From: Irpex lacteus
Lineage: Eukaryota > Basidiomycota > Agaricomycetes > Polyporales > Irpicaceae
Length of the DNA stretch: 64,000 nt
Assembly: GCA_001986395.2 (NCBI GenBank)
Contig: MQVO02000008.1
Coordinates: 1,054,001-1,118,000, forward strand
Direction of reading: 5' to 3'
Positions 41,168-59,837 of the stretch are shown in pieces. The notes under the pieces were generated by a model, which saw only the letters and a program-made list of their open reading frames with translations, made no database searches and had not been told where the DNA came from. Both the position numbers and the translations under genes were made by a program. Position 1 is the stretch's first letter. Each line of letters opens with the position of its first letter.

Positions 41168-42480
41168 ATGGTCGACCAACGGCTGGTGATCAAATCGCAG
41201 CAGGTACGCTTAACTTGAGAGTCCCCAGTCTACAGCTCTCACCACGTATCTAATAAAACCTCCAGAGCAATAAGAGAGAACACCCGTGCGCTGGCTGCGG
41301 TAAGGCTGGCATCGACAAAGTCAAGATATGCACGTGGTGCATGAAGACTCGATATTGCAGCAAGGAATGTCTTCATAGTGACTGGCCGCGTCACATCTTT
41401 GACTGCAAGCCCCACCGACCGGTCACCACCGCGGACTACCTCGTATACTCCATCCTGCACGACCTCAGTCATCCCCATACCGAGAGTCGCAGAGATTGGG
41501 GGCTTGACAAGGCGGTAATGCTGTACCCGCAGTCTGCCGTCAGACTATTCGAGTTATATCAAGAGCTCATCAAGGAGAAGGGTATCACGGCCAAACAGCT
41601 TCACCAATGGCGCGAAGAGGGAACTGTCATTGAGAACATCAAGGCAATATATGAGGCTATGCCTCTTGAAAGCCGTGGTGAACCTTATGCCTGGTTTCTC
41701 GCTCACCAGTCCGTCCTCGAGCAGCCTACTGTCACTCCTGACGATATCAACGCTGTGACGGATAGAAGAAATCTAACCTTGTGGGCCTTATTAGGGCTTA
41801 AGGAATCAATGCCAGACGTGCCTGAGAACATGGTTACGAGCGTCGTGGTAGAATCCTTCGATAAACCCATGCGTACCTGTTGGGACCTGTACAGTGTGCT
41901 GTACGAACCCTGCCTCCCCAACCCGACCAGTCCGCATTGGATTATATTCGGATTTTGTGCCTGCCCGACAGTAGAGGAGTTGAGGGAACTCGCCGATGCA
42001 TATCGTAGGATGCTTCTCTACTGCTCATTTATCAAGCTCCGTGACGCCGTGGCAAACAACTTGCTTCATGTGCTGTTCAAGAAGTATATCATAACAATTC
42101 CCTCCCAATATCCCTTCTTCGAAGAATGTCTCTTCGACGCTCTCTCCGGATCGCCATGGAAGGGCGTATGGGTACTAAAACAATCATTTGCCGAAAATAT
42201 CGACGCACTCAACTGGAAGACTGGTAACGAACACGTCGACTTTGAATATAGGATTATACGGTGCAAGAATGCGAAGGAGAAGCGTCAGCTGTTCAACCTA
42301 TACAAGAATTTCTTCGCAAATCCTGTGTCCAATCCGCTCAAGTTACACGCGGCCGCCAAAGCCTTTCGTTTATTCCAGTTCTTCGAGGATGACATGGGTA
42401 TTCAGTTCGGAAAGAATCAGAGGATTATGCTGAAGCGAATACTCGAGATTAGCCCACGAATCCGTACGTCTTTTCCTTAA
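41168..42480 (+). CDS. MYND zinc-finger protein 1
   Basis: Exon 1 (41,168-41,203) encodes MVDQRLVIKSQQ. After a 62-bp intron, exon 2 (41,266-42,480) starts with the zinc finger. Cys20, Cys23, Cys34, Cys37, Cys43, Cys47, His55 and Cys59 fit the MYND pattern, a protein-protein interaction finger. The remaining 350 residues (WGLDKAV, IENIKAIYEAMP, FLAHQ, FGFCACPT, SNPLKL) match the paralogue at 52,437-53,802 but no family I can name. The protein ends at RTSFP, about 45 residues before the paralogue's end. A GTACGT donor just before the stop could instead splice to 42,515 and stop four codons later. The 3' side is filled with mobile DNA, so the C-terminus may have been trimmed. Confidence 0.8.
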
Positions 42481-42850: not shown

Positions 42851-44099
42851 CACTACATCTAATCTACTATTTTTCATATCCAAAAAGGGTTAGATAAAGA
42901 GTAAACAAACTTTAAGTTCCTAACTTATTTTGTGATGATGAAAATTATGAAAAAATTGAATTGGCAGATGTCAGATTTTTGTAGACCAAAAAGATTGACC
43001 CGTTATTGTATTTTGTACTCTTTAAAATGTGACCAGCTGTGTCACATTTTTATACACTCAAAATATAGAGCAAAATATAGAGAACTCAAGATTTTATTTT
43101 CATTTGGCGACATACAAAATGATATTGCAGCTCTCGCTTTTGTTATCATTTTTTCTATTGTAAAAGTGTATACAAGAAATTACATTTTTCATATCATTTT
43201 ATTAACTGTTGTTCTTTACTTCTAATAAACTTTTAGAAGCAGTGAAATTGAACCCTGCAGCACTGGTAAAATAAAAAGGGCTGAATTATATTTTACCTCA
43301 TGAAAATTTGAAAACAAATCGAAGGAAACCGGAATAAGATTTTATCAATGATTTTGTCAGCTTAAAAATCACTTCATGATTGATTGCATTTTTGTCTTCA
43401 TAAAAGTAAAAATACAATGTTGCCCAATACATTAAACTTTTTCGTGTCGGGATCACGTTCAATACTGCATTTCCTCGAGTACAGACTGAAGTTCGGTACA
43501 CAATCCATCTGGGCTAGTTCTCGTGTATAGATCTGTATTTTTACTTTTACGAAGACAAAAATGTAATCAATCATGAATTGATTTTTAAGCTGACAAAATC
43601 ATTGATAAAAGCTTATTCCGGTTTCCTTCGATTTGTTTTCAAATTTTCATGAGGTAAAATATAATTCAGCCCTTTTTATTTTACCAGCGCTGCAGGGTTC
43701 AATTTCACTGCTTCTAAAAGTTTATTAGAAGTAAAGAACAACAGTTAATAAAATGATATGAAAAATGTAATTTCTTGTATACACTTTTACAGTAGAAAAA
43801 ATGATAACAAAAGCGAGAGCTGCAATATCATTTTGTATGTCGCCAAATGAAAATAAAATCTTGAGTTCTCTATATTTTGCTCTATATTTTGAGTGTATAA
43901 AAATGTGACACAGCTGGTCACATTTTAAAGAGTACAAAGTACAATAACGGGTCAATCTTTTTGGTCTACAAAAATCTGACATCTGCCGATTCAATTTTTT
44001 TATAATTTTCGTCATCACAAAATAAGTTAGGAACTTAAAGTTTGTTTACTCTTTATCTAACCCTTTTTGGATATGAAAAATAGTAGATTAGACGTAGTG
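42851..44099. mobile_element. CACTA-type fold-back element, non-autonomous
   Basis: The two arms are inverted complements: 42,851-43,415 and 43,535-44,099 (565 bp each), around a spacer of about 119 bp. The outer ends are CACTAC and GTAGTG, matching the CACTA terminal signature, and the flanks carry a 3-bp direct repeat CCT (42,848-42,850 and 44,100-44,102), the target duplication length typical of that superfamily. It is far richer in A+T than its surroundings. Each arm contains the same 97-codon frame (42,932-43,225 + and 43,725-44,018 -), which differs at only a few residues; it has no transposase motif. It is therefore a miniature element that needs a transposase from elsewhere. The high arm identity suggests a recent insertion or ongoing conversion between arms. 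Confidence 0.88.
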
Positions 44100-44809
44100 C
44101 CTTCCGCTTCCCCATCTACAGACTGATTCATCTGTCAGCCGGTAGGGCACGTATACCTATGCGATATGGCAGAACTACGCCACCCAGTACAGAGATATAG
44201 CAGTAAATATACGTAATACATGTCCAGTTTACTTATATCAAGTATCGGTATGTTCCACGTGAATGCAAGCTGACAATCGAAGTGACAATTCCGTGCTCTA
44301 CGTACTCTACCGTAACCGTCGGCAGTATTGCGATCGTTGTGCCTCTATACACCAGGGGAACACCTTGAAAGCAACACATATACGTACTATTCGCATTTAT
44401 ATGGCATATAGATAGCCCGGCAGAAGGTAGTCGTATAGCAAATGAGAGATAGTCATTCAGATTCAGTGCTGGTATGAGTAGTCACATGAAATAGTGGTAA
44501 TTACTCAACGACTGTTACAGCCCTTAGCTAGACATTTAATCGCAGCTATCTTTGCATAGCGCAGGATACCCCTGTGGTTTGTTGTGTCCATAATACGCCT
44601 TGATATGGAGGAAAGAAATCCGGCAGCTTTTCTGCTCATCCGGGCATAGTAGGTACCATATCTCCTCGAATTGAAGAGAGGGAGGCTTGAAATTTGTTCT
44701 AAAGGAAGCATAGCATTATGTTATATAGTACATACAATGATGTGTCCGTGCGCCACGGCGTGCACCAATACGACGAGAATGTACGACATTGAAAGGGTAC
44801 GGCGCCTGA

Positions 44810-44842
44810 CGCTGTTTCCAAACTTTTGGGCGCCACTAGTAC
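44810..44842 (-). repeat. Right half of the 33-bp inverted repeat pair
   Basis: Inverse complement of 42,683-42,715. It ends 107 bp before the left terminus of the helicase element. Confidence 0.65.
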
Positions 44843-44940: not shown

Positions 44941-44949
44941 GCCTTCAAC
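44941..44949 (+). repeat. 9-bp target duplication, left copy
   Basis: GCCTTCAAC lies immediately outside the left terminal repeat and is identical to 51,099-51,107. Confidence 0.8.
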
Positions 44950-45199
44950 CAGACTCCTACCCAGTCGTCGTCGGGGGGAGAGCAGAAGATATTCTAGGTC
45001 TCGAGTAGCGTACGGATATTGTAAATCTCAGACATGCCTGTTTTAGCAATCAATCATATTATATAATGCATCAAACCAACACGTGCTTATTCTCAAACTT
45101 TATTTCTGCTTCCCCCCCTCCGACGACTGGCATATAACAACTGTAAACATTGATTGATCTCACGGCCGGCACTGCGGACTTTGAACAAAACTCAAGAAA
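44950..45199 (+). repeat. Left terminal inverted repeat of the helicase element
   Basis: It aligns with the inverse complement of 50,844-51,098. The outer 35 bp match closely, the middle is more diverged, and the inner part (ACACGTGCTTATTC to ACAAAACTC) is nearly identical. It ends 70 bp before the helicase ATG, so it probably contains that gene's promoter. Confidence 0.85.
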
Positions 45200-45269
45200 G
45201 GGTGAAGCGCTCAAAAATGCGTCCGTCACGAGTACAGTGAGTACACGCGCAAAGTCTATTGACAAGGAA

Positions 45270-48081
45270 ATGGAACCTCGGACCGACTCGACTTCTCAGT
45301 CCTCCTTGAATACTACACGCAACGTTCCAACCATCGATGCAATCCGCGCGAAGTGCCAGACAGTCTTTGGTCTCCGTGCTTGCCGGCTCCAGTGTCAATA
45401 CACTCAGGCTGTGCTTGAGAAGAAGGATGTTTTGTTCGAGATTGGCACCGGTGGAGGCAAAACCTTGGCGTTCTGGCTCCCCCTGCTGTTTCGACCTGAC
45501 GGCTTGATCATCGTCGTCACTGCTCTGAACGTATTGGGCGAGCAGAACGTGAGTCAACTCGCGAAGGCTGGAATCAAAGCCATCGCCATCAACGGCAGTA
45601 CAGCGACCGCGGCAAATTTTCAGGTGCGTGTATTGACATCTATCATATATATGCCGGCTTAGGTTCTTGTGTAGGCTATAGACGATGGCATTTACCGTGT
45701 AGTTGTTGTAAGCCCCGAGCAGCTTATGAGACACTCCGGCGGCTTTGAGAAGCTACTACGGAAGCCGGAATTTGTTCAGCGCGTCGTCAGTGTTGTTTTC
45801 GATGAAGCACATTGTATTAGTACGTGGAAAATATTCCGACCTGAGTACCAAGCTCTCGAAAGACTTCGACATGTCATCCTCAAACAAATTCCCGTTGCTG
45901 CTGCTTCTGCAACGCTGCCCCATACCGTCAAAGAAGATGTCATTAAAACATTACATATGAAAGCCGAAAATACCATCCATATCGCACGACCAACTGACCG
46001 CCCAGACGTACACCTGGCGGTTCGTAAAATCGAGTATCCTCTCAGCTCGTATCTCGACCTTGCTTTCGTCCTACCTGCGAACCCAGAAGCCAAGCCGCCA
46101 AAATTCATCGTGTTCTTTGACAACATCACGGAAGCTGTTGATGCGTGTATCACGCTTCGGAACCGTTTACCACCAGAATATGCGCACAAGATCGCGTGGT
46201 TCCATTCGGAGATGACGGGGACATACAAGAGAAGTATAGTGGAGAAATTAATGCGCGGGGAACTGTGGGGTATTTTCGCCACGGACTCATTTGGAATGGT
46301 GAGTCAGTCTTTGCTGATCTGTCCAATATCTCTTGTGATAAACGTTTACTCTACAGGGTATTGATATACCAGATATCGTTTTGATTGTGCAGTGGCGAGC
46401 GCGATGCGGGATGTGCGCCCTATGGCAAAGGTTCGGGCGCGGTGCGCGTGGACCTGGCACGGAAGCGGTGGCGATATTTCTAGTAGAATCAAAGTACTTC
46501 GACGAAGAAAGAGAAAAGGCCGAGGAAAGGCGACAGCAGGCGAAGAAGAGGAAGTTAAACAAGGCGGGCGCTGTTGCTGCACACTCTAGTGCGTTAGCAC
46601 CCTCGGCACCCACTGCACTAGTACAAGCCAACGTCGAACGCTCGAACGGGCACGACGAAGCCATGTCTGAAGACGAAGATCAAGATGTACCTAGGCCAGT
46701 CGCCGCTTACCCAGATAACGACGATGCGCGTCGTGCGCGATACAAGCAGACCGCTGAGCACGAAGTTAAGATAGGCACAAAGAAAAGAAAAGCGGACGTG
46801 CTACTCGAAGAGCCTATCGACGATTTCATTAATGCTGATCGACGAAACGGGCTTGGATGTCGGAGGAAGCCTGTGTCCCTCTACTTCAATACCAGTCAGA
46901 TTGGTACGTGTTTCGTATATCAGTATCATTCATATTTCTGACACACGCTGCAGAGACAGATCACCTTCTATGTGATACAACAAAAAAGGAAGGATGTACG
47001 CGCTGTGCTGTGCAACGTTCCCAGCTCTGTTGTGATCTTCACGACGGCGCTAAAGTACTTATCGACGCTCTTCATCCTCCCACCGCCATCGAACGACCGC
47101 TGTGCGCTCCCCGACGTTCCCCACTCAAAGACTACGTAGCAACCGCGTCTGATATGGAGCTTAAGGACTTGCTACATAACTGGAGAGTAAGCCAAGTCAT
47201 CGGAAAATTCGGTCAAGGCGGGCTTGCAAACTTTGGGCCTGGTATCGTGATGCAAACTGAAACGCTTACCCGCATCGTCGACTGTGCTCACCACGGCAAG
47301 ATCAAGAACACTCTCGATCTCAAGCGCGAGACAAAATGGGACGGGGCCGACACATTCGGAGACGACGTGCTTGCCCTTATTAGGCAAGTACACCCGTCCT
47401 TGTCGCCTTTCACGAGCGAGCCTCTCCCGTCTGCCACATCATCGGTGACCGCGCAAGATGGGCTCAGGAAAGAGCGGACATGTAGTGCATGCGGAGGAAC
47501 AGGACATATACGTACGTCACTTCCAGTTATATTACATGAACGTGCTAAGTTGTATAATAGGAAGCAATAAGAAGTGCCCTCGCTGGCAACCGAGGGCGAA
47601 GGAAAGCGCAGCGGCGAAGGAGAATGTTCCTCCCACTCCTTCAACCTTCCGTTTGGCCAACGTTATGCCCCCGCCAATAGCCATACCCTCGCGCCCACTA
47701 CCTTCCTCCTCTGTACCATTAGGCAGTGTATCTGCACCGGCTTCTGGATCACGGCAACCATACGATATCCTCGCCTCACTCGCTCAGACAACCCCCACAG
47801 ACCGTGTGCGCCGTGTTTGCAGTACGGCGCAGTTAGGAGCAGAAGCTGCCGCACGAGATGCTCAACAGCGTGCACTAAGCTCGTCTTCAGTTCACACAGG
47901 TACGTCATTGTAGCTTTGCGATAGAAACATCTATCTAACATGGGCTCAAGTCTCCACGCCTTCCTCTGTGTCTTCATCGCGCCCTCACACCCCAATCTCA
48001 GCTGTCACATCTTCGAGCTCCGCCTCTGGCTCTTCGTCCGCCGTTACTCCTGCATCGCACGCCTCCAAAGTTTCCGAGTAG
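45270..48081 (+). CDS. RecQ-like DEAH DNA helicase with zinc knuckle
   Basis: The gene has six exons: 45,270-45,623, 45,675-46,298, 46,357-46,903, 46,954-47,511, 47,561-47,899 and 47,951-48,081. They keep phase and give 850 residues. Superfamily 2 motifs are complete: Walker A GTGGGKT (59-65), VFDEAHCIS (159-167) with STWK just after as in RecQ proteins, SATLP (196-200), FGMGIDIPD (about 324-332) and QRFGRGARG (350-358), which replaces the RecQ QEIGRAGRD. After the helicase core come a charged, Lys-rich linker, a Cys-rich region (CTRC, LCC), a knuckle CSACGGTGH followed by KKC, and a Ser-rich tail. The upstream in-frame region lacks another ATG, so MEPRTDS is the likely start. The last exon overlaps the opposite DUF6589 gene by 97 bp. 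Related helicases are multicopy and often subtelomeric in fungi. Here it is cargo or a partner of a mobile element. Confidence 0.87.
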
Positions 48082-50707
48082 CCCGAGAGTACGTGAGTGT
48101 AAAGTGATTGCCACTGACCCTGATCTATCATGTCTTTAATAATATGCACACTTCGTCGTCCCTGTTTGGCTTCATGCGGCTGTGTCTGCTCCAGATACCG
48201 AAGTACAGTCTGAAAGGTAAGTGTCATATTGGGATCCGCATGTCTGGTTGTGAGATGGCCTAGTGCAAGGTTGTGCTCAAATACCAGGTGGAGATCACGG
48301 AAGATCTGAATCAACGTGCTCTCGTCGAGTACACGTTGAACGGTATGGTTTACTCCGGTGCCGCCAAATTTTGTCTGTGCCAGGAATTGAGCAACAGCAT
48401 CTCGTAGGTAGAGTTATTGATAGCTTACCTTCGTGTACAAGTTATTGAGCTCTAAACACCAGTCAGGTGCTCTGAAACAGCCCTTCTTCCCTGATGGATT
48501 AATGAGAATAGTGTAACGGATAGCTCTTCTACTTTTAGTAAGTCACTGTCGCATCCGATGTATGAGTGATCGTACTCACTTTAGACCAGATGGGTATTTA
48601 TAATGCACATCTGCGAGATAGTAAAGCATATGCTTGACGTATTTGTGCTTTCCGGTTGCTTTGAAAATCCATACCCACGGCAAGAAACAGGATTCGACAC
48701 GTGCAATATCTCCATAGTTCATAGCAAAGGCAAGCTCTTCATACAGCAGGAAGTACTCGTTCAGCAGGAGATTGTTCTCGAACTGCTTATCACGAATGTT
48801 CTCTGGCCGTGCTCGCATTTGATGTAATTCCCGCTTACGATCGGTGTAGTTCATAGCCAAATGATTTGCGACTTTCTGCAATTCCTCGAGTGATGGATTA
48901 GTGGCTGCGTATATCTCCAGTGTTCTATGCATCGGGTTTCGTCTCTGCACCTCCACTCTCCAGCAGTCCAGACGGCGACAAATGCCAGAGTGCTGGATTA
49001 TTTGATGCATGCGTCGGAATCCAGGCTTTGATGTCACAGTGCCTGTCTCGGATGGACGCAATATGCTCACATCCTTCATTAGGCAAGTATCGTCCTCGCG
49101 CGCACTACGGGGCTGGATGAATACCTTCCATAAGGCATCGACGCATGCCATCTTCAAGTGAAATAGCCCCAGTACAAAGATAACATGCTGCAAGCGGGCC
49201 CATGGGGTATCCTCGTCGGATCGCCGTAGGATCGCGGAGCTAATTTTTTCGCCGGTGCCCAAGTCGCCATAGACAAGTACGACATGATCGGCAACACTGA
49301 CTGAGGCCTTACTGCCACCCGAGTCTTCAAGAGAGGCCTGTGGATCACCGACACCGACATGGCTAAGCATGTGGTTTATTGCGCGAATATTTCCGACAAC
49401 CTCTGAGTTATTGTCGGTAGTGGCTCGTAATGGGACGGTGGGTGTCTTTGATATAGGGATTTGCTCGATGATCTCCGGTAAGCCAATCTTTCCACGATAT
49501 TTCTGGAATGACTCAGGGCCATAGTGGCACAAGTCATGCAAGAACTTCCACGCATTAAAGCGATCGCGCGGTGTCATTGCGTTCTCGTCGACTGCATATG
49601 TTTGTGGGTGAATAGACATTAGGTCAAGCCAAGTTGGCCCAGGCGGAAGTTGGGCTCGTGGTATACGGGCATTAAGCCTAGCCTGCTTCCATAAGAAATT
49701 GGAGCACTGAAGATGAAAGGCTTTGACCTTGATTTCGGGAGGGAAAGGAAATATCATGGAGGAGGTAAAATGCTGCAATGTTGGCTCTGCGGCCTTTTCG
49801 ACAGTAGGTACGGCGGGCTTAAGGCTGATCTCCAAGTTATCGTACACATACGCTGCTTCAAGCGTCTGCGCGACTTCTTGACCATCATCGAGAATGTGTT
49901 TGCCAAGAGAGCTGAGTGAATTATGGATGGTGGATTGAGCAGTCGACACTCCCATATGAGCAAGGGAGTCAACAAGCTTCTGGGGTGCGTGTACAGCATG
50001 CAAGAATATTCCGAAGATGCTCTGGAGCCAATTGGCCTTCTGATTTCGTGCTTGCATAAATATACTACATACAAGTACTTTTTTCTGTGTAGGGTGCCGT
50101 TAGTGTCTTTGAATAGTCTACTAATACATATTAGACGTACACTGACAACCATTGCCAGCTGTCTCTTGATCAGATTTCTCGTCCGCCGGTTAGATCTCAG
50201 ACTGTGTGCGCCAACTGACACCTCTGCCCCATCCCCGAGATCGTTCGTCGTTGCGTCTTCCATCTCTACGTCATCTCGCTCTGCGCTCAAGTCTTCCGAG
50301 CTATTCCCAACCCCAATGTCTGTGTGGGCCACAACCCTGTCCAATATCGCCCAGAGATGAGGTGCCGTTGTTCGCATTTCATCTGCCATCTCGCTAATAT
50401 CGAACTCTTGCAGTTGATAGGGTTCTGCGTGACCAGCCGTAAAGTGCCAGTACGTACTGGTCACAGCAAGGCTGCGGATTTCTTCGTCAAGTAAGTCCGT
50501 AGTCCTGTCTATTGTCCAGGCACGAACTCCGCCGGTGGTCTGTCGATGTCTACCGAATGCCTCGACGATGTCCTCCCACGCATCGAGGAGATCCCGCGCC
50601 ATGGGATGAAATCCAGCATCGCCACTTAGTAGATTAAGCACGAACTGAGCGATCCCTGTGTTATGAGAGGAGAGCAGCCGATGGATTTGTTCATACAGTG
50701 TGTGCAT
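47985..50707 (-). CDS. DUF6589 protein, candidate transposase
   Basis: Exons (minus) are 50,707-50,143, 50,050-48,580, 48,528-48,429 and 48,374-47,985, giving 841 residues with all phases kept; the first intron (92 bp) is the least certain. DUF6589 is a large basidiomycete family of unknown function. Recognised landmarks are NQKANWLQSIFG, AYVYDNLEIS (Asp259), FNAWKFLHDL, IEQIPISKTP, VLVYGDLGTGE (about 447-456), FVLGLFHLKMACVDALWK, SKPGFRRMHQ, RRLDCWRVE, LLYEELAFAMNYGD, ATGKHKY and DWCLELNNLYTK. The conserved acidic residues in YDN, GDLG and the EELxxAMNxGD segment are spaced like a split RNase H-type catalytic core, but this is my guess from pattern alone. The N-terminal 188 residues are acidic near their end (ERDDVEMED). 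No premature stop was seen. The start lies 137 bp inside the right terminal repeat. Confidence 0.82.
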
Positions 50708-50843
50708 GGCGTTCGCAGTAGTGTAGTCCTGCGAGTGCCACTATCAATACTGATATCGCAGACTTCAAGTTTATTGCACACGCATCATACTTCCAATCCA
50801 AATCTGGCCAGCTATATTGTCAGAATTCATGGGCGTTAAATAG

Positions 50844-51098
50844 TTTCTCGAGTTTTGTTCAGAGTCCGCAGTGCCGGCCGTGAGATCAATCAATGTTTAC
50901 AGTTGTTATATGCCAGTCGTCGGAGGGGGGGAAGCAGAAATAAGGTTGGGAATAAGCACGTGTTGGGTTGATCGATTATATAATATTGATCGATTACTTA
51001 AACGGGTAAAGACATCACTGAGATTTAGAATATCCTACGCAAACTGAGAATTAGAATGTCCCTGCTCTCCCCCCCGACGGCGACTGGGTAGGAGTCTG
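50844..51098 (-). repeat. Right terminal inverted repeat of the helicase element
   Basis: Inverse complement of 44,950-45,199. It runs from TTTCTCGAGTTTTG inward to GGTAGGAGTCTG at the outer border. Confidence 0.85.
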
Positions 51099-51107
51099 GC
51101 CTTCAAC
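51099..51107 (+). repeat. 9-bp target duplication, right copy
   Basis: GCCTTCAAC is identical to 44,941-44,949 and abuts the right terminal repeat. Confidence 0.8.
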
Positions 51108-52436
51108 GCCCAATCCGCTCTCTCCTTTCCTTGGCTATTTTTTCGGGTTAGAAGTTCCGAAAGAGATACTCACGACCTCAGAAGGCAACTGATGCGTGAG
51201 GCTGCCAAAGAGATCGTGAAGACCAATGCTGGTCAGTCACAGCGCACGCGGAACTTCGGAAGTTACAGGTGAGTCAACTACAGATGCGTTGTACAACACA
51301 ATATGTCCTAATAAGTGCGACGCTGTAATTAAGTACTTACTTAGATGTTTCGAATTGCTCCTTACTCTCCACAGTCGGCGTGTACTTGGTGCTTGGCCAA
51401 GTACGGCACCTCACCTAGTACGCCCGGGAGTAGATGATTTCGAGCTACGCTAGCGCTTTCTCTACATCAAATTCAACCATCGGGTGCGAATGCGACGTGC
51501 AGATACTCCACAGACTTGAAAAAGCGGATTTGCGGTCGAGAACTGGCAGCAATACTGAGCCGCAGCTGCAACGCACGTAAGTGGCTCCTATGACTCGGAA
51601 TGTAGCAACGCGTTCTGGGCGACTGACGTGGCCTTTGAATTGAACATCAATACCGTTAGCGGATTGTGAATTCCGACGAGAGCAGCCTGTCGACTACGGG
51701 CGAACAAAGAAAGAGATCAGATCGACCGATTGACGGAAGTATTGCTGGGAAAGTTGCCCGAAAAGGCAACGCATCGTGTGTGGGCGGCAGCTTCTCACTC
51801 TCATGCTCACCCACATAACACGCCAGGATCGGTCTTGCGCCAACAGTGGCTTTAGACAAGCCCTGAAATATATGGATACCATTGACGTGAATGCTAGACA
51901 TGGCGGTTCATGGAGCGACCTGTAACTCGAATCATGATACCCCTAAACACCGAAATAGGCATAGCAAACTTAAATGTAGGCGATCGGTACCAGTGAGTCT
52001 ATAGACCTGGAGTAAGTACTAGTCAGTTACGAGCTGCGGCAAAGTTAATGTACCTTACCGCCTATCTTCCAGGCACCTTATCCACGCTCTCAATCGACGT
52101 TATCGGAACAGCGACCCTCTGTTCAGCCATCCCCCCGCAGCGTCGCATTCTCGCTGGAAGGCAATTGGTGATCTAGCTGGTGTCTACCGATTCCACTTGA
52201 TCTCAAATCTAGACTGGACGCGACACTGTCGTCACACTGCTTTCAGCCATTTAATCCCTTGTCGCAAAGAACTCTTGCTGCGACCTCTCCTCTCCGATTA
52301 TCAAAACTCATCCGAGTATTTAACCCAGGAATCCATACACAACGTCTGTGCAGTCGTCTGATCAGGCGCCAGAGGTAAGTCAGGCTTGTCCACATCATGT
52401 CTCAGCATACTGATCAAGTGAATAGCGCGTCGCCAG
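51108..52436. other. Region upstream of MYND gene 2
   Basis: No gene was recognised up to about 52,320. TATTTAA at 52,317-52,323 may be the TATA element of MYND gene 2. From about 52,332 to 52,373 the sequence aligns with exon 1 of MYND gene 1, but ATC stands where the ATG should be; a GTAAGT donor follows at 52,374. Confidence 0.45.
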
Positions 52437-53802
52437 GGAGCACGAGTGCACCGCCTGCGGAAAGATTAGCAGCTCGAGGAAATGTGCGAGGTGTCAGCAA
52501 GCCAAGTACTGCAGCCGTGAGTGCCAGAAAGTGGATTGGTTTCGGCACGTCATCGACTGCAACACACACATTGGCAAGCCTGTAACCTCTGCGCATCATC
52601 TCGTATATGCGACCGTCGCTGAGGTCGCTCTGGCTGATCCGCAAGCCCGCTTCGACTGGGGGCTAGACAAGGCCGCTGTCGTATCCCCCACATCGCCCAG
52701 GCTGCTTCACCAGCTGTACAGGGGGTTGATTGTAGAGAGCGGTATCACAGCTACGCGCCTTCACAGATGGCGTACGGACGGCACACTTGTCTGGAACATT
52801 AAGGCGATTTACGAGGTTATGCCACCTGAAGCTCGTGGAGAGAGGTACTCTTGGTTTCTAGCACACCAATATGTGTTCATGAACCCTTTCGTCACGCCAT
52901 CCGAGGATGAGAAACAGCAGGACAGCATGGACAAGCGACTATGGTCCCTAATTGGTGGCGACCCGTTGGCTTGCCTGGAAACGATACGCGAGTTCATCGG
53001 AAAGTTCGATGAGAACACTCGCAGCTGCTGGGAATTGTTCAGAGGGCTCATGGACTGTACGTACCCCGGACCCATGTCGCCATCGTGGCTCGAGTTCGGG
53101 TTCTGCGCATGTCTCACGAAACGCGACGAGATGAGGCTCTTTACCGCGTATAAGGATCTCGCAACTATTTGCCCTTTCTACGTGTTTCGAGACGCGTTCG
53201 TTGCTGGCTCCCTCGTCTCCCTTTTCCAACAGCACAAGGTCCCTCTATCCTCATCTACCGCCGCTTCCTCGACACTCGATTGCTGTCTCATTGACACACT
53301 CTCCCTGAAACCCCACCAGAGACGATCGGTCTGGTGGTTGAAGCGTCTCATATCTATTGTACCTCATAACTCAGAGGTCGACTGGCGATGCCCCTACCCC
53401 TTGGACGTCGAGTGGGGATTCGTCCAGTGCAAGAATAAGAAGGATACGAAGGGACTCATGAGCCTCTATAAGGCATTCTTCTCATCCCCGACATCTAACC
53501 CTCTGGAACTAGACATGGCTAGGCGTGCTGGTCGCTTATCCCAGTTCCTCTTTGATGATATAGGGATCAAGGTCTCTCGGGAACGCCAGAGGCGGTACAA
53601 ACGATGGTTCTCGGACCTCGTTATGTCACCTCCTTCGATTTCCAAGAAGGCACAAGATGCGACTTGGGAACGGCTGGTGGACTCCTTTTCTCCACAGAGA
53701 CGTAGAGCCTTCGATGTGGAATTACAGGCTGCCATTGTGCCTGTTAGCGCTCGTACATTGGAGGGAGTGACATGGCACGTTTTGGCACAAGGTACAATTT
53801 AG
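52437..53802 (+). CDS. MYND zinc-finger protein 2, paralogue of 41,168
   Basis: The main exon starts after an acceptor at 52,436 and opens with EHECTACGK. The MYND finger is complete (two CxxC pairs, then YCSREC, His and a final Cys in FRHVIDC). About 420 residues follow that match MYND gene 1 (WGLDKA, LHRWRTDGT, IKAIYEVMP, SWFLAHQ, FGFCACLT, SNPLEL) and end in WHVLAQGTI, beyond the end of gene 1. The exon is open throughout. The start is a problem: the nearest ATG (52,397) is in the wrong frame for the finger, and the exon aligned with gene 1 exon 1 has ATC in place of ATG. Either an upstream exon or a non-ATG start is used, or the gene has lost its start. Confidence 0.75.
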
Positions 53803-57274: not shown

Positions 57275-59837
57275 TTATATTGCATGCCCCTCGTCAAATG
57301 CCTTGCGCTGAAACGCGTAGTCTCCATATCCATTCCCGTTAGCGAACGGCTTATTCAGGTCCGAAATATGGTCCTCCGGGTCCTCTTTGGGTATATCGTA
57401 GGGCGTCGATAGTCCAGGGCTTCTAATCGCAAACGAGTCTACACCTCCCGCACCGGCACTGCGTATCTGCCAATATTTTTCCGCCGGAAAAATGTGAAGA
57501 AAATGAGACATAAAAGGTAGCACCGTTCTCACACTTTCCACGAGAAAAATATGTCGCAAAATGATAGTTTTGCGTAAGCCTTTTGTTGCGCACAGAATGC
57601 AGGGTAAAATGCTTCCTTTGTTAGTCCATTTTGCGGAACATTTTCGTTACGGTAATAACAACCCTTTGTACATTACTGTTTGTCCCTTAAAAACCCGATC
57701 TTGTTTACATCTCTGTTTTAATCAATTGAATGTTCTGTTACACGAGCAGGATGAGGGTACAAGAGGAACGGCAAAAACGAACTCAACTAATGAAGGTGCA
57801 ACAGGCCTGATTACCGACATTTTCTAGCAAACGATGTCACATCTTATTGGACAAAAAAGTAATGTACAAAGAGTTGTTGTTACCGTAACAAAAATGTTCC
57901 GCAAAATGGACTAACAAAGGAAGCATTTTACCCTGCATTCTGTGCGCAACAAAAGGCTTACGCAAAACTATCATTTTGCGACACATTTTTCTCGTGGAAA
58001 GTGTGAGAACGGTGCTACCTTTTATGTCTCATTTTCTTCACATTTTTCCGGCGGAAAAATATTGGCAGATACGCAGTGCGGCGCTCATTATCGTGCGCAT
58101 GCCGAATGACTCAACTCGTTCTTCGCGAACAGCTGGCCGGAAACTTGACAGTACATGATCTGACCCACGACCACAAGTCTGTAGCCGGGAAGGGTCCTGC
58201 TTGGGGTCAGCGTAGGCAGTCACGCGAAGATTCATCGTGATGCGGCAAATGATGGTCGTCATCAAGCTAGACGATAAGTATCTGAGAATGAGTGAAAAGT
58301 AGAATGCTATAAGGGAGGAAACGTACCATGCAGACGGTCTGAAACAATCAATTGGAAGCAGATCAGCAAACAGGCCACTCCACAGGATCCGCCACAGCAC
58401 GCTGTATCCATGAGAAAGAACACTCACTGCCCGGCAATAGCCCTCAAGCCTGTTGGTGCATGTAAAATCATGATCACCCAGGTGAGATTAATCGAGAAGA
58501 TCGCTCTGTAAACGTCTATAAGTATTCCATCCGTAAAAACCGGGGGGTTGGAGACACGTACCCGAAGTACAACGCGCCATCCTTCAATAGACTCTCTAGC
58601 AAAGCCCATCCACGGAAAGTCATTGGCGTCACGGTGCTGAATCGTTGATTCTTCTTCTGTTTTCGCCGATGATAGTGCATGTATACGGTCCGTGAGGCGG
58701 TGAGGAGGAATATGAGACTGTCAAAACCGACCTCCATCGATACGTACATGATGGAGAAATGCCCCCTGTATAGCCATTTGATGTGTTAGTGGATATGCGT
58801 CTAGTATGAGAATAATCACAGCGGCACGAAACATCGAACTTACAGGTCCTTCGGCGGTAGATAGATGCAGACTAGTGAGAGAGCGCTCAGCGAAATTGAC
58901 AAAACCCAACAGGTAGCATGTGCCCACAGTGATATTCGTAGTTATCCAGAGGCAGCGGCGCAGGAGTCGCTCCGGGAAAGGTATACTGCCAGAGACCCGC
59001 GGCCGTTTGGGCGGCAAGGTATACCAGCAGGAAGCCAAGAATGAATCGATTGGCGTTGTACATGGCCCATACCCTATTTTTGATTTAGCACCTCTATACT
59101 TCTATAGTTACTAAATCTCCGTGCCTGACACTCATGAGGATACTTGGGAACAGGCTGAGAGGCATCGTAACACCAAGCGGAAGGAAGTACATCCATTTGT
59201 TGCAACTATCCCCAAAGTTCAGAGATTGAAAAGTAGCAGGTGAAGGCAGAGCAGCATACCGTTCTCGTGTCATCGCTGTTGAGAAGTACGCTATTTCCTG
59301 GCGTTAGATAGAAACGGAGTAGGCTGTTGTAACCCCAGCTCACCGAAGCACACCACGACCATGACTGCGATGCAGTAGTAGCGTACCTACGTATATCTAG
59401 TTAGTACAAGTGGTACCTCGCTGAAAGAATTACCGTACAAATAAGAAGATATATGACACTGCATCGATGAAAGTCAGTAATTGTAGGTATATGGAGCTGT
59501 CTTTGCGGCTTACGCTTCGTCTTCTTCCGCTTCCATATCACCTCAACCTTCGTCGGCTCGTCAGTCGACTGTCATATTCGAGTTCAAAGCGAACACGGAC
59601 CTCTTGTGCAAACGTTAGACTATGATCATATAGAAGGACGCACAGGCCAGCCAAGAAGAAGTACTATGAGAAGTGAGAAGTGAGTTTCATGGCAAAGCGC
59701 TCGCATATTGCCTGTATAATACCTTTCCAACCTGGCTGGAGACATGAACGCATTGAGTAAGGCGCGTATTCTTCAAAATAATGATGAGCCACGAACATGT
59801 CCCTCACAGCCTCCTGAATCTCAGGGGACGCATCCAT
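57275..59837 (-). CDS. DUF6533-type seven-helix protein, outlier copy, interrupted
   Basis: It is a distant member of the array family, 21 kb away. Exon 1 starts at 59,837 (MDASPEIQEAVRDMF, then FEEYAPYSMRS), not the array's ELQ exon. A core exon near 59,517-59,560 reads TKVEVIWKRKKT, the DUF6533 signature. Later exons read ITVGTCYLLGFVNFAERS (about 58,880-58,935), DSLIFLLTASRTVYMHYH with ESLLKDGALYFG (about 58,570-58,730), and IICRITMNLRVTAY (about 58,220-58,260), the counterpart of CRFILNLRQ. The tail exon is split at MSA/GAGGVDSF by the 622-bp element at 57,457-58,078. Leaving out the element and one CGG rejoins the frame, and the tail then runs to GHAI at 57,275. As it stands the gene either ends early in the element or makes a chimeric tail. 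Confidence 0.7.
57457..58078. mobile_element. CACTG-ended miniature inverted-repeat element
   Basis: The ends are CACTGCGTATCTGCC and its inverse complement. Arms of roughly 200 bp (about 57,457-57,660 and 57,880-58,078) are nearly perfect inverse complements. CGG is directly repeated outside (57,454-57,456 and 58,079-58,081). The CACTG end and 3-bp duplication place it with CACTA-type elements. It has no transposase. It lies inside a coding exon. Confidence 0.87.

Follow-up and report, generated by a model that had tools for sequence, protein, structure and literature searches.

A family of terminal-inverted-repeat DNA transposons in Irpex lacteus pairs a RecQ-like helicase gene with a DUF6589 gene encoding a candidate transposase

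What brings a RecQ-like helicase gene and a gene for a DUF6589 protein together between inverted repeats in the genome of Irpex lacteus, and do the two move as one? We addressed this question in a window of 64,000 nucleotides (nt) of contig MQVO02000008.1 (assembly GCA_001986395.2, positions 1,054,001 to 1,118,000 of the forward strand), in which a first-pass annotation had placed a base-precise two-gene transposon, proposing that both gene families form a single class of DNA transposon with DUF6589 as its transposase. The boundaries proved exact: the element is a 6149-bp insertion at window positions 44950-51098, with inverted repeat ends of ~250 nt. The left terminal inverted repeat (TIR; 44950-45199, + strand) and the right TIR (50844-51098, - strand, ~255 nt) are 86.8% identical over 258 alignment columns (left nt 1-250 against right nt 1-255), with complementarity reaching 97% in the outer 30 nt and 90% in an inner 123-nt stretch. 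Copies of the 9-bp target site duplication (TSD) GCCTTCAAC occupy 44941-44949 and 51099-51107 and directly abut the tips CAGACTCCTACCCAG...CTGGGTAGGAGTCTG from outside; the chance of a 9-bp match at two fixed points is 4^-9, or 4e-6. No other two positions in the window, at a spacing of 4-9 kb, pair a 9-bp direct repeat with tips of which at least 11 of 12 nt are complementary.

The interior of the element carries two convergent genes, in line with the two-gene content initially described. The first, on the + strand at 45270-48081, encodes an 850-aa RecQ-like superfamily 2 helicase in six exons (45270-45623, 45675-46298, 46357-46903, 46954-47511, 47561-47899 and 47951-48081). Its product matches the Pfam domains DEAD and Helicase_C, presents Walker A, DEAH and GRGARG motifs, and has RecQ (E 8e-30), WRN (E 4e-24), RECQ1 and RECQ5 as its nearest solved structures. 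Neither this protein, nor the helicase of the C40 copy, nor five fungal homologues gave a match to RecQ_Zn_bind, RQC or HRDC, and it is this RecQ core lacking all three domains that makes "RecQ-like" the apt name; a candidate CCHC zinc knuckle near the helicase C-terminus scores under the Pfam cut-off. The second gene, on the - strand at 48429-50707, encodes a 725-aa DUF6589 protein (PF20231, E 4.3e-70) in three modelled exons without a stop (50707-50141, 50084-48580 and 48531-48429). A further C-terminal exon, beyond the 725 aa modelled, probably lies inside the open frame 48413-47985 (- strand), which overlaps the last helicase exon tail to tail. Beyond the two gene spans, the element contains no open frame of at least 100 aa.

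To place this copy in its genomic context, we mapped both families across the assembly (44.3 Mb, 317 contigs; loci are named contig:position). Merging 71 exon-wise matches yielded 36 DUF6589 loci, and 40 helicase loci were assembled from the 58 places of one search, 12 of the 38 places of another and one further stretch, the remaining 26 of those 38 falling at loci already counted and the two C214 helicases merging into one locus. A helicase lies within 7 kb of 31 of the 36 DUF6589 loci, whereas random placement of equal numbers on a single 44.3-Mb line linked 0.6 on average and 5 at most in 5000 trials, so that the linkage predicted by the first-pass annotation is clearly present. The convergent order that it had also predicted holds in the window and at 20 of the 31 linked loci, but not as a general rule, since nine pairs are divergent and two lie on the same strand. 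The two same-strand loci (C187:834719-840934 and C143:2742-8960) are near-equal, and their DUF6589 part is fragmentary.

Pairwise distances among DUF6589 sequences and among their partner helicases, computed for 23 of the 31 linked pairs (357 and 212 alignment columns, respectively), are strongly correlated (Mantel r 0.961), with none of 20000 permutations reaching this value and the highest attaining 0.467. The nearest neighbour is identical for DUF6589 and helicase in 20 of the 23 pairs, and the two trees have five clades in common, one of them made up of divergent pairs. Together, these results demonstrate that DUF6589 and the helicase co-evolve and travel together.

Protein searches suggest that the association extends beyond this genome. 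The DUF6589 protein of the C40 copy returned 148 matches and that of the window 60, with PF20231 present in every one of the matches listed (the best 120 of 148 for C40, and the 60 of the window protein); the named species among them are presumably all agaricomycetes, and no DUF6589 relative was found on viral contigs. Both the C40 DUF6589 protein and the C40 helicase share 98% identity with proteins of Irpex lacteus. The C40 helicase returned 333 matches, the best 120 of which comprise 44 of its own fungal type or from unnamed contigs and 76 others, mostly prokaryotic RecQ. Taking equal contig size as a proxy for residence on the same contig, 18 of these 44 helicase-family proteins, against none of the 76 others, fall on a contig equal in size to that of a listed DUF6589 protein. 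Species names are available for seven of the 18 and agree (Irpex lacteus twice, Trametopsis cervina, Mycena rosella, Mycena alexandri, Cyathus striatus and Pholiota molesta); the other 11 come from unnamed contigs of 4.0-6.9 kb. Judged from equal-size contigs, the linkage thus appears to recur in other agaricomycetes, as had been anticipated.

We then examined the ends of other copies, for which inverted repeats with TSDs of 8-9 bp had been predicted. Among 17 elements or loci searched, 12 present an exact 9-bp TSD, one has a TSD of 8 or 9 bp and four lack a complete end pair; about 20 DUF6589 loci lie outside this two-end survey. Explicit extraction returned an exact 9-bp TSD in 10 of 10 elements, the window copy among them. 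The duplications are CTTCTGCAC at C185:833723, CATCTAAAA at C185:1162050, TGGCGCAAT at C255:72102, GAGATAGAC at C20:397860, GGCTCAGAG at C57:9603 (two genes, same clade as the window copy), CCGTCTCGG at C40:20826, TCCGTTTAC at C54:306544 and CGCACTGAT at C255:953165 (both with short, shifted TIRs), and TCTATTGGG at C204:11794 (a gene-less element). Outside these ten, C1:1561814 likewise has an exact 9-bp duplication, CACCAGAAC. At C296:273080, placement of the right tip determines whether the duplication ACTCCCGTT counts 9 or 8 bp. On contig C6 an inversion has left the two ends equally oriented and separated by 28 kb, and their flanks, ATTCCAGAT and ATCTGGAAT, are reverse complements; this copy (C6:41226 and C6:69653-79014) is a relative of the window element disrupted by one insertion and one inversion. 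No complete end pair was obtained at C23, C54:8880, C308:1774k and C309, loci chosen because no helicase was listed there, the C23 and C308 pieces covering one side only. Similarly, an inverted-repeat search in eight 4-kb pieces around DUF6589 domains returned no long end pair, because the ends lie beyond those pieces.

The tip pattern YAGNCTC, starting with CAG or TAG, was found in 19 of the 19 ends tabulated and in the C296 left end, covering five clades, while the C296 right end, (T)AGTCTGG, departs from it. Three copies of one subfamily are 99-100% identical over the end sequence available and are flanked by three different TSDs; near-identical copies at different targets indicate that transposition has been recent. 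Position 8 of the TSD, read on the assembly + strand in 12 TSDs including that of the window, is A in ten and G in two; the choice of strand is arbitrary, and we do not claim a target consensus that depends on it.

Insertion as a unit was assessed through empty sites, by joining the flanks of four insertions with a single TSD copy and searching the same assembly, a check that the first-pass annotation had suggested in related strains and that came out positive for two of the four. The empty site of the two-gene element on C57 lies at C20:293592-294022 (431 bp joined, 1 mismatch) and contains GGCTCAGAG once, and that of the gene-less C204 element lies at C296:1533173-1533603 (431 bp joined, 4 mismatches) and contains TCTATTGGG once; both sites are alleles or recent duplicates. 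Because each holds its TSD only once, insertion as one precise unit is a direct observation for the family. By its inverted ends, its fixed-length TSD and its occupied and empty sites, we place the family among the TIR-type class II DNA transposons. A different origin for the pairing would be a Helitron-like rolling-circle unit that bears the helicase and has captured DUF6589, given that Helitrons carry helicases and capture genes, as stated in the available text of two sources (PMC12730594, PMC4289320). Such a unit is at odds with TIRs and 9-bp TSDs at both ends, with a window helicase giving no match to Rep or PIF1-type Pfam profiles, and with the presence of DUF6589 at nearly every helicase-linked locus. 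We consider its probability negligible, TSDs and empty sites together ruling it out unless the profiles missed a Rep domain.

Which of the two proteins, if either, is the transposase? DUF6589 is the best candidate, since the element holds no other open frame of at least 100 aa and since DUF6589 co-evolves with the helicase. In an alignment of 35 DUF6589 sequences (P0014 numbering), D271 in a YDN motif is conserved in 23 of the 24 sequences covering it, D437 in a GD motif in 34 of 34, H474 in 35 of 35 and H738 in 28 of 28. A pattern search located a later glutamate in a D-x-x-x-E context in 18 of 23 copies, and inspection by eye added the C1 copy, for a total of 19 across all five clades; the remaining four copies gave no D-x-x-x-E match, and the relevant exon may lie outside their sequence. 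The equivalents in the window protein are D271, D463, H498 and E718. As judged from this alignment, DUF6589 has retained a D-D-H-E arrangement characteristic of DDE transposases, and on the basis of these residues, the co-evolution and the lack of another candidate we consider it likely that the protein is a DDE-type transposase. Single weak Pfam matches to TBPIP (0.0065), HTH_Tnp_Tc3_2 (0.026) and Arg_repressor (0.033), all of helix-turn-helix or winged-helix type, give a hint, and no more, of a DNA-binding N-terminus.

Pfam searches at E <= 1 identified PF20231 in all 35 DUF6589 proteins, and neither the Mutator-like element (MULE) domain PF10551 nor the KDZ (Kyakuja, Dileera, Zisupton) domain PF18758 in any of them. 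Comparison of DUF6589 profiles with PDB sequences gave no match and then four chance-level matches to the vitamin D receptor (E about 1). The MULE result bears on the possibility that the two genes are passengers, moved in trans by a Mutator-like transposase encoded elsewhere. MULEs typically make 9-bp duplications, often with long inverted ends; a 9-bp TSD and ends of ~250 bp are what we observe here, and the genome contains 12 MULE-domain matches. Six MULE loci of 3.3 kb, however, revealed no inverted pair with a TSD, although these pieces may stop short of the MULE ends, and the roughly 20 kb of MULE loci contain the YAGNCTC-type tip pattern 4 times, below background. An hhalign comparison of DUF6589 with MULE likewise gave no match, a weak test based on four local MULE sequences. 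Passengers, moreover, would not be expected to co-evolve across five deep clades or to retain catalytic-looking residues, and we regard movement in trans by a MULE as improbable. The family thus resembles MULEs in its 9-bp TSD and long TIRs and differs from them in a DUF6589 protein with no detected MULE domain or profile similarity and in its dedicated helicase.

Another explanation would be that the family belongs to a superfamily already on record, for example KolobokH or AcademH, and has diverged from it with a change in TSD length. Fungal KolobokH elements, as described in the available text (PMC9587614), are TIR DNA transposons that pair a DDD/E transposase with a RecQ-type helicase; TSD length is described as variable within hAT (PMC12730594, available text), and the D-D-H-E pattern proposed here is of the same general type. 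In KolobokH, however, the transposase domain is followed downstream by the helicase, whereas here the two are separate convergent or divergent genes, and Kolobok elements are described as having a TTAA TSD and 5'-RR termini (PMC9587614, available text), in contrast to the 9-bp TSD without TTAA and the YAGNCTC tips of the present family, a comparison made by description. We therefore consider membership in a catalogued superfamily rather unlikely, and the element is probably a TIR DNA transposon of a new superfamily, set apart from Kolobok by description, rather than of a named one. KDZ elements are likewise multicopy DNA transposons of Agaricomycetes, some with an accessory enzyme gene, but they present TSDs of 7 bp (Kyakuja) or 8 bp (Zisupton), no TIRs in Kyakuja, and TET/JBP as the accessory enzyme (PMC12730594, available text); the KDZ domain has 49 matches elsewhere in this genome. 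Multicopy RecQ-like helicase genes are described in another mushroom, Agaricus bisporus var. burnettii, where they lie at chromosome ends and where the available text reports no link to DUF6589 (PMC7473861).

The available main text of a survey of fungi traces helicase domains to AcademH, KolobokH and Helitron and contains no word beginning with DUF (PMC10799480), and that of work on Marasmius oreades covers KDZ, Plavaka and active hAT elements without mention of DUF6589 (PMC8290104, PMC9674265). The term "DUF6589" is absent from the 5.39 million papers of the open-access PMC literature, a collection that does not extend to Repbase, Dfam, preprints or most subscription journals, and the titles and abstracts found there do not describe DUF6589 joined with a helicase; a Repbase entry for the element may exist under another name.

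A further property of the ends, not anticipated by the first-pass annotation, bears on the role of the helicase. Among the 16 ends of the eight elements compared, 15 contain a stretch starting at nt 11-15 that recurs inverted further inward, its sequence varying by subfamily. In the window, the left outer arm (44961-44987, + strand; nt 12-38) matches the inner arm (45104-45130; nt 155-181) at 85% in a self-alignment of the left end, and on the - strand the right outer arm (51062-51087; right end nt 12-37) pairs with the inner arm at 50913-50937 (nt 162-186). Both 11-nt tips, CAGACTCCTAC on the left (44950-44960, fitting the family pattern YAGNCTC) and its counterpart on the right (51088-51098), are unpaired in the predicted folds. 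Predicted DNA folds for 18 ends of nine elements leave an unpaired tip of 11 nt in 11 ends, 10 nt in two, 13 nt in one and 3-8 nt in four, and exceed those of shuffled DNA in strength (z <= -3) for 11 of the 18 ends, as opposed to none of 60 random window segments; these folds are not independent, given that each element contributes two ends and that three of the copies (window, C185:833k and C204) are relatives. The termini are hence predicted to form foldbacks that begin about 11 nt inside the tip.

Taking these observations into account, we read the element as an autonomous transposon of the TIR class that inserts as one unit, as shown for the family. The DUF6589 transposase would bind the inverted ends, cut them and join them to a target whose two strands are cut with an offset of 9 bp, with gap filling at the staggered cut yielding the 9-bp duplication, and gene-less copies such as C204 would move in trans using the same ends. 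The RecQ-like helicase would act as a dedicated accessory enzyme that most likely opens or processes the hairpin-prone ends, or else aids repair. We think it reasonably probable that the helicase is part of the transposition reaction, with opening or reading of the foldback ends as the preferred function; it is possible that the foldback ends serve instead as paired transposase binding sites, and possible that the helicase has a repair role. A more specific version, in which DUF6589 defines a new DDE superfamily, widespread in Agaricomycetes, whose ends combine an 11-nt tip with a hairpin foldback opened or read by the helicase, so that recognition proceeds via single-stranded or hairpin DNA and not just a linear repeat, is put forward tentatively, as less probable than not.

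Several observations weigh against this reading. Profile searches gave DUF6589 no match to a known transposase; the window's own ends fold weakly (z -2.2 and -1.1), and the C1 foldback is irregular. Empty sites for the window copy and for C255:72102 were not found in the same assembly, and those that were found fit a donor that was excised as well as one that was copied. Linkage is also incomplete: no helicase was detected at five of the 36 DUF6589 loci (two on C257, C308:1774k, C309 and C54:8880, the last examined across 7.7 kb), and 10 of the 40 helicase loci are unlinked to DUF6589. One of the latter is probably the host RecQ, since it adjoins the single RecQ_Zn_bind match of the genome. 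A C40-type helicase at C213:174283-175410 (48% identity) has no DUF6589 match within 7 kb and is possibly a solitary or host-adopted copy.

The five DUF6589 loci without a detected helicase also favor a scheme in which DUF6589 is the transposase and the helicase acts outside the chemistry, in repair of the donor break or in replication or protection of the element, being dispensable for cutting and joining. RecQ enzymes act in repair, which fits such a role. The congruence of the two trees over deep divergence suggests a direct pairing, though it is compatible with this scheme as well, and the foldback ends offer the helicase a substrate. On balance we deem a helicase outside the chemistry a minority prospect, and retain the helicase as a participant in the reaction.

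If this reading holds, it would provide a likely function for Pfam family PF20231/DUF6589, hitherto of unknown function and multicopy in mushrooms, and would explain the parallel expansion of RecQ-like helicases by a shared mobile element. It would add a helicase-bearing design to TIR transposons and turn the role of a dedicated helicase in DNA transposition into a testable question, and genome annotations could treat both families as one mobile element and not as host gene expansions. Of the proposal that motivated this analysis, the part joining both gene families in one DNA transposon is borne out by TSDs, empty sites and linkage; the part assigning the transposase function to DUF6589 rests on residues, co-evolution and the lack of another candidate.

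The surroundings of the insertion contain additional repeats. Open frames with a MYND finger lie on the + strand on either side of it (41257-42480 and 52426-53802). In the left flank, the stretch 44730-44842 recurs at 13 other places in the genome with 76-100% identity, some matches being short, and is probably the edge of another repeat, as indicated by its recurrence and its end at 44842. Further upstream, a hairpin at 42851-44099 has 566-nt arms that are 98% complementary around a 117-nt spacer, and its CACTAC tips, with CCT on both flanks, suggest that it is perhaps a CACTA-like gene-less element. A second hairpin, at 57456-58079, presents 226-nt arms that are 98% complementary around a 172-nt spacer, with no clear flanking duplication seen. 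Finally, positions 2800-35740 of the window hold a tandem array comprising nine copies of a 159-nt stretch along with other stretches, spaced 2.6-5.2 kb apart and 60-75% alike, the frames of which we take to resemble multi-membrane-span proteins of the DUF6533 type.

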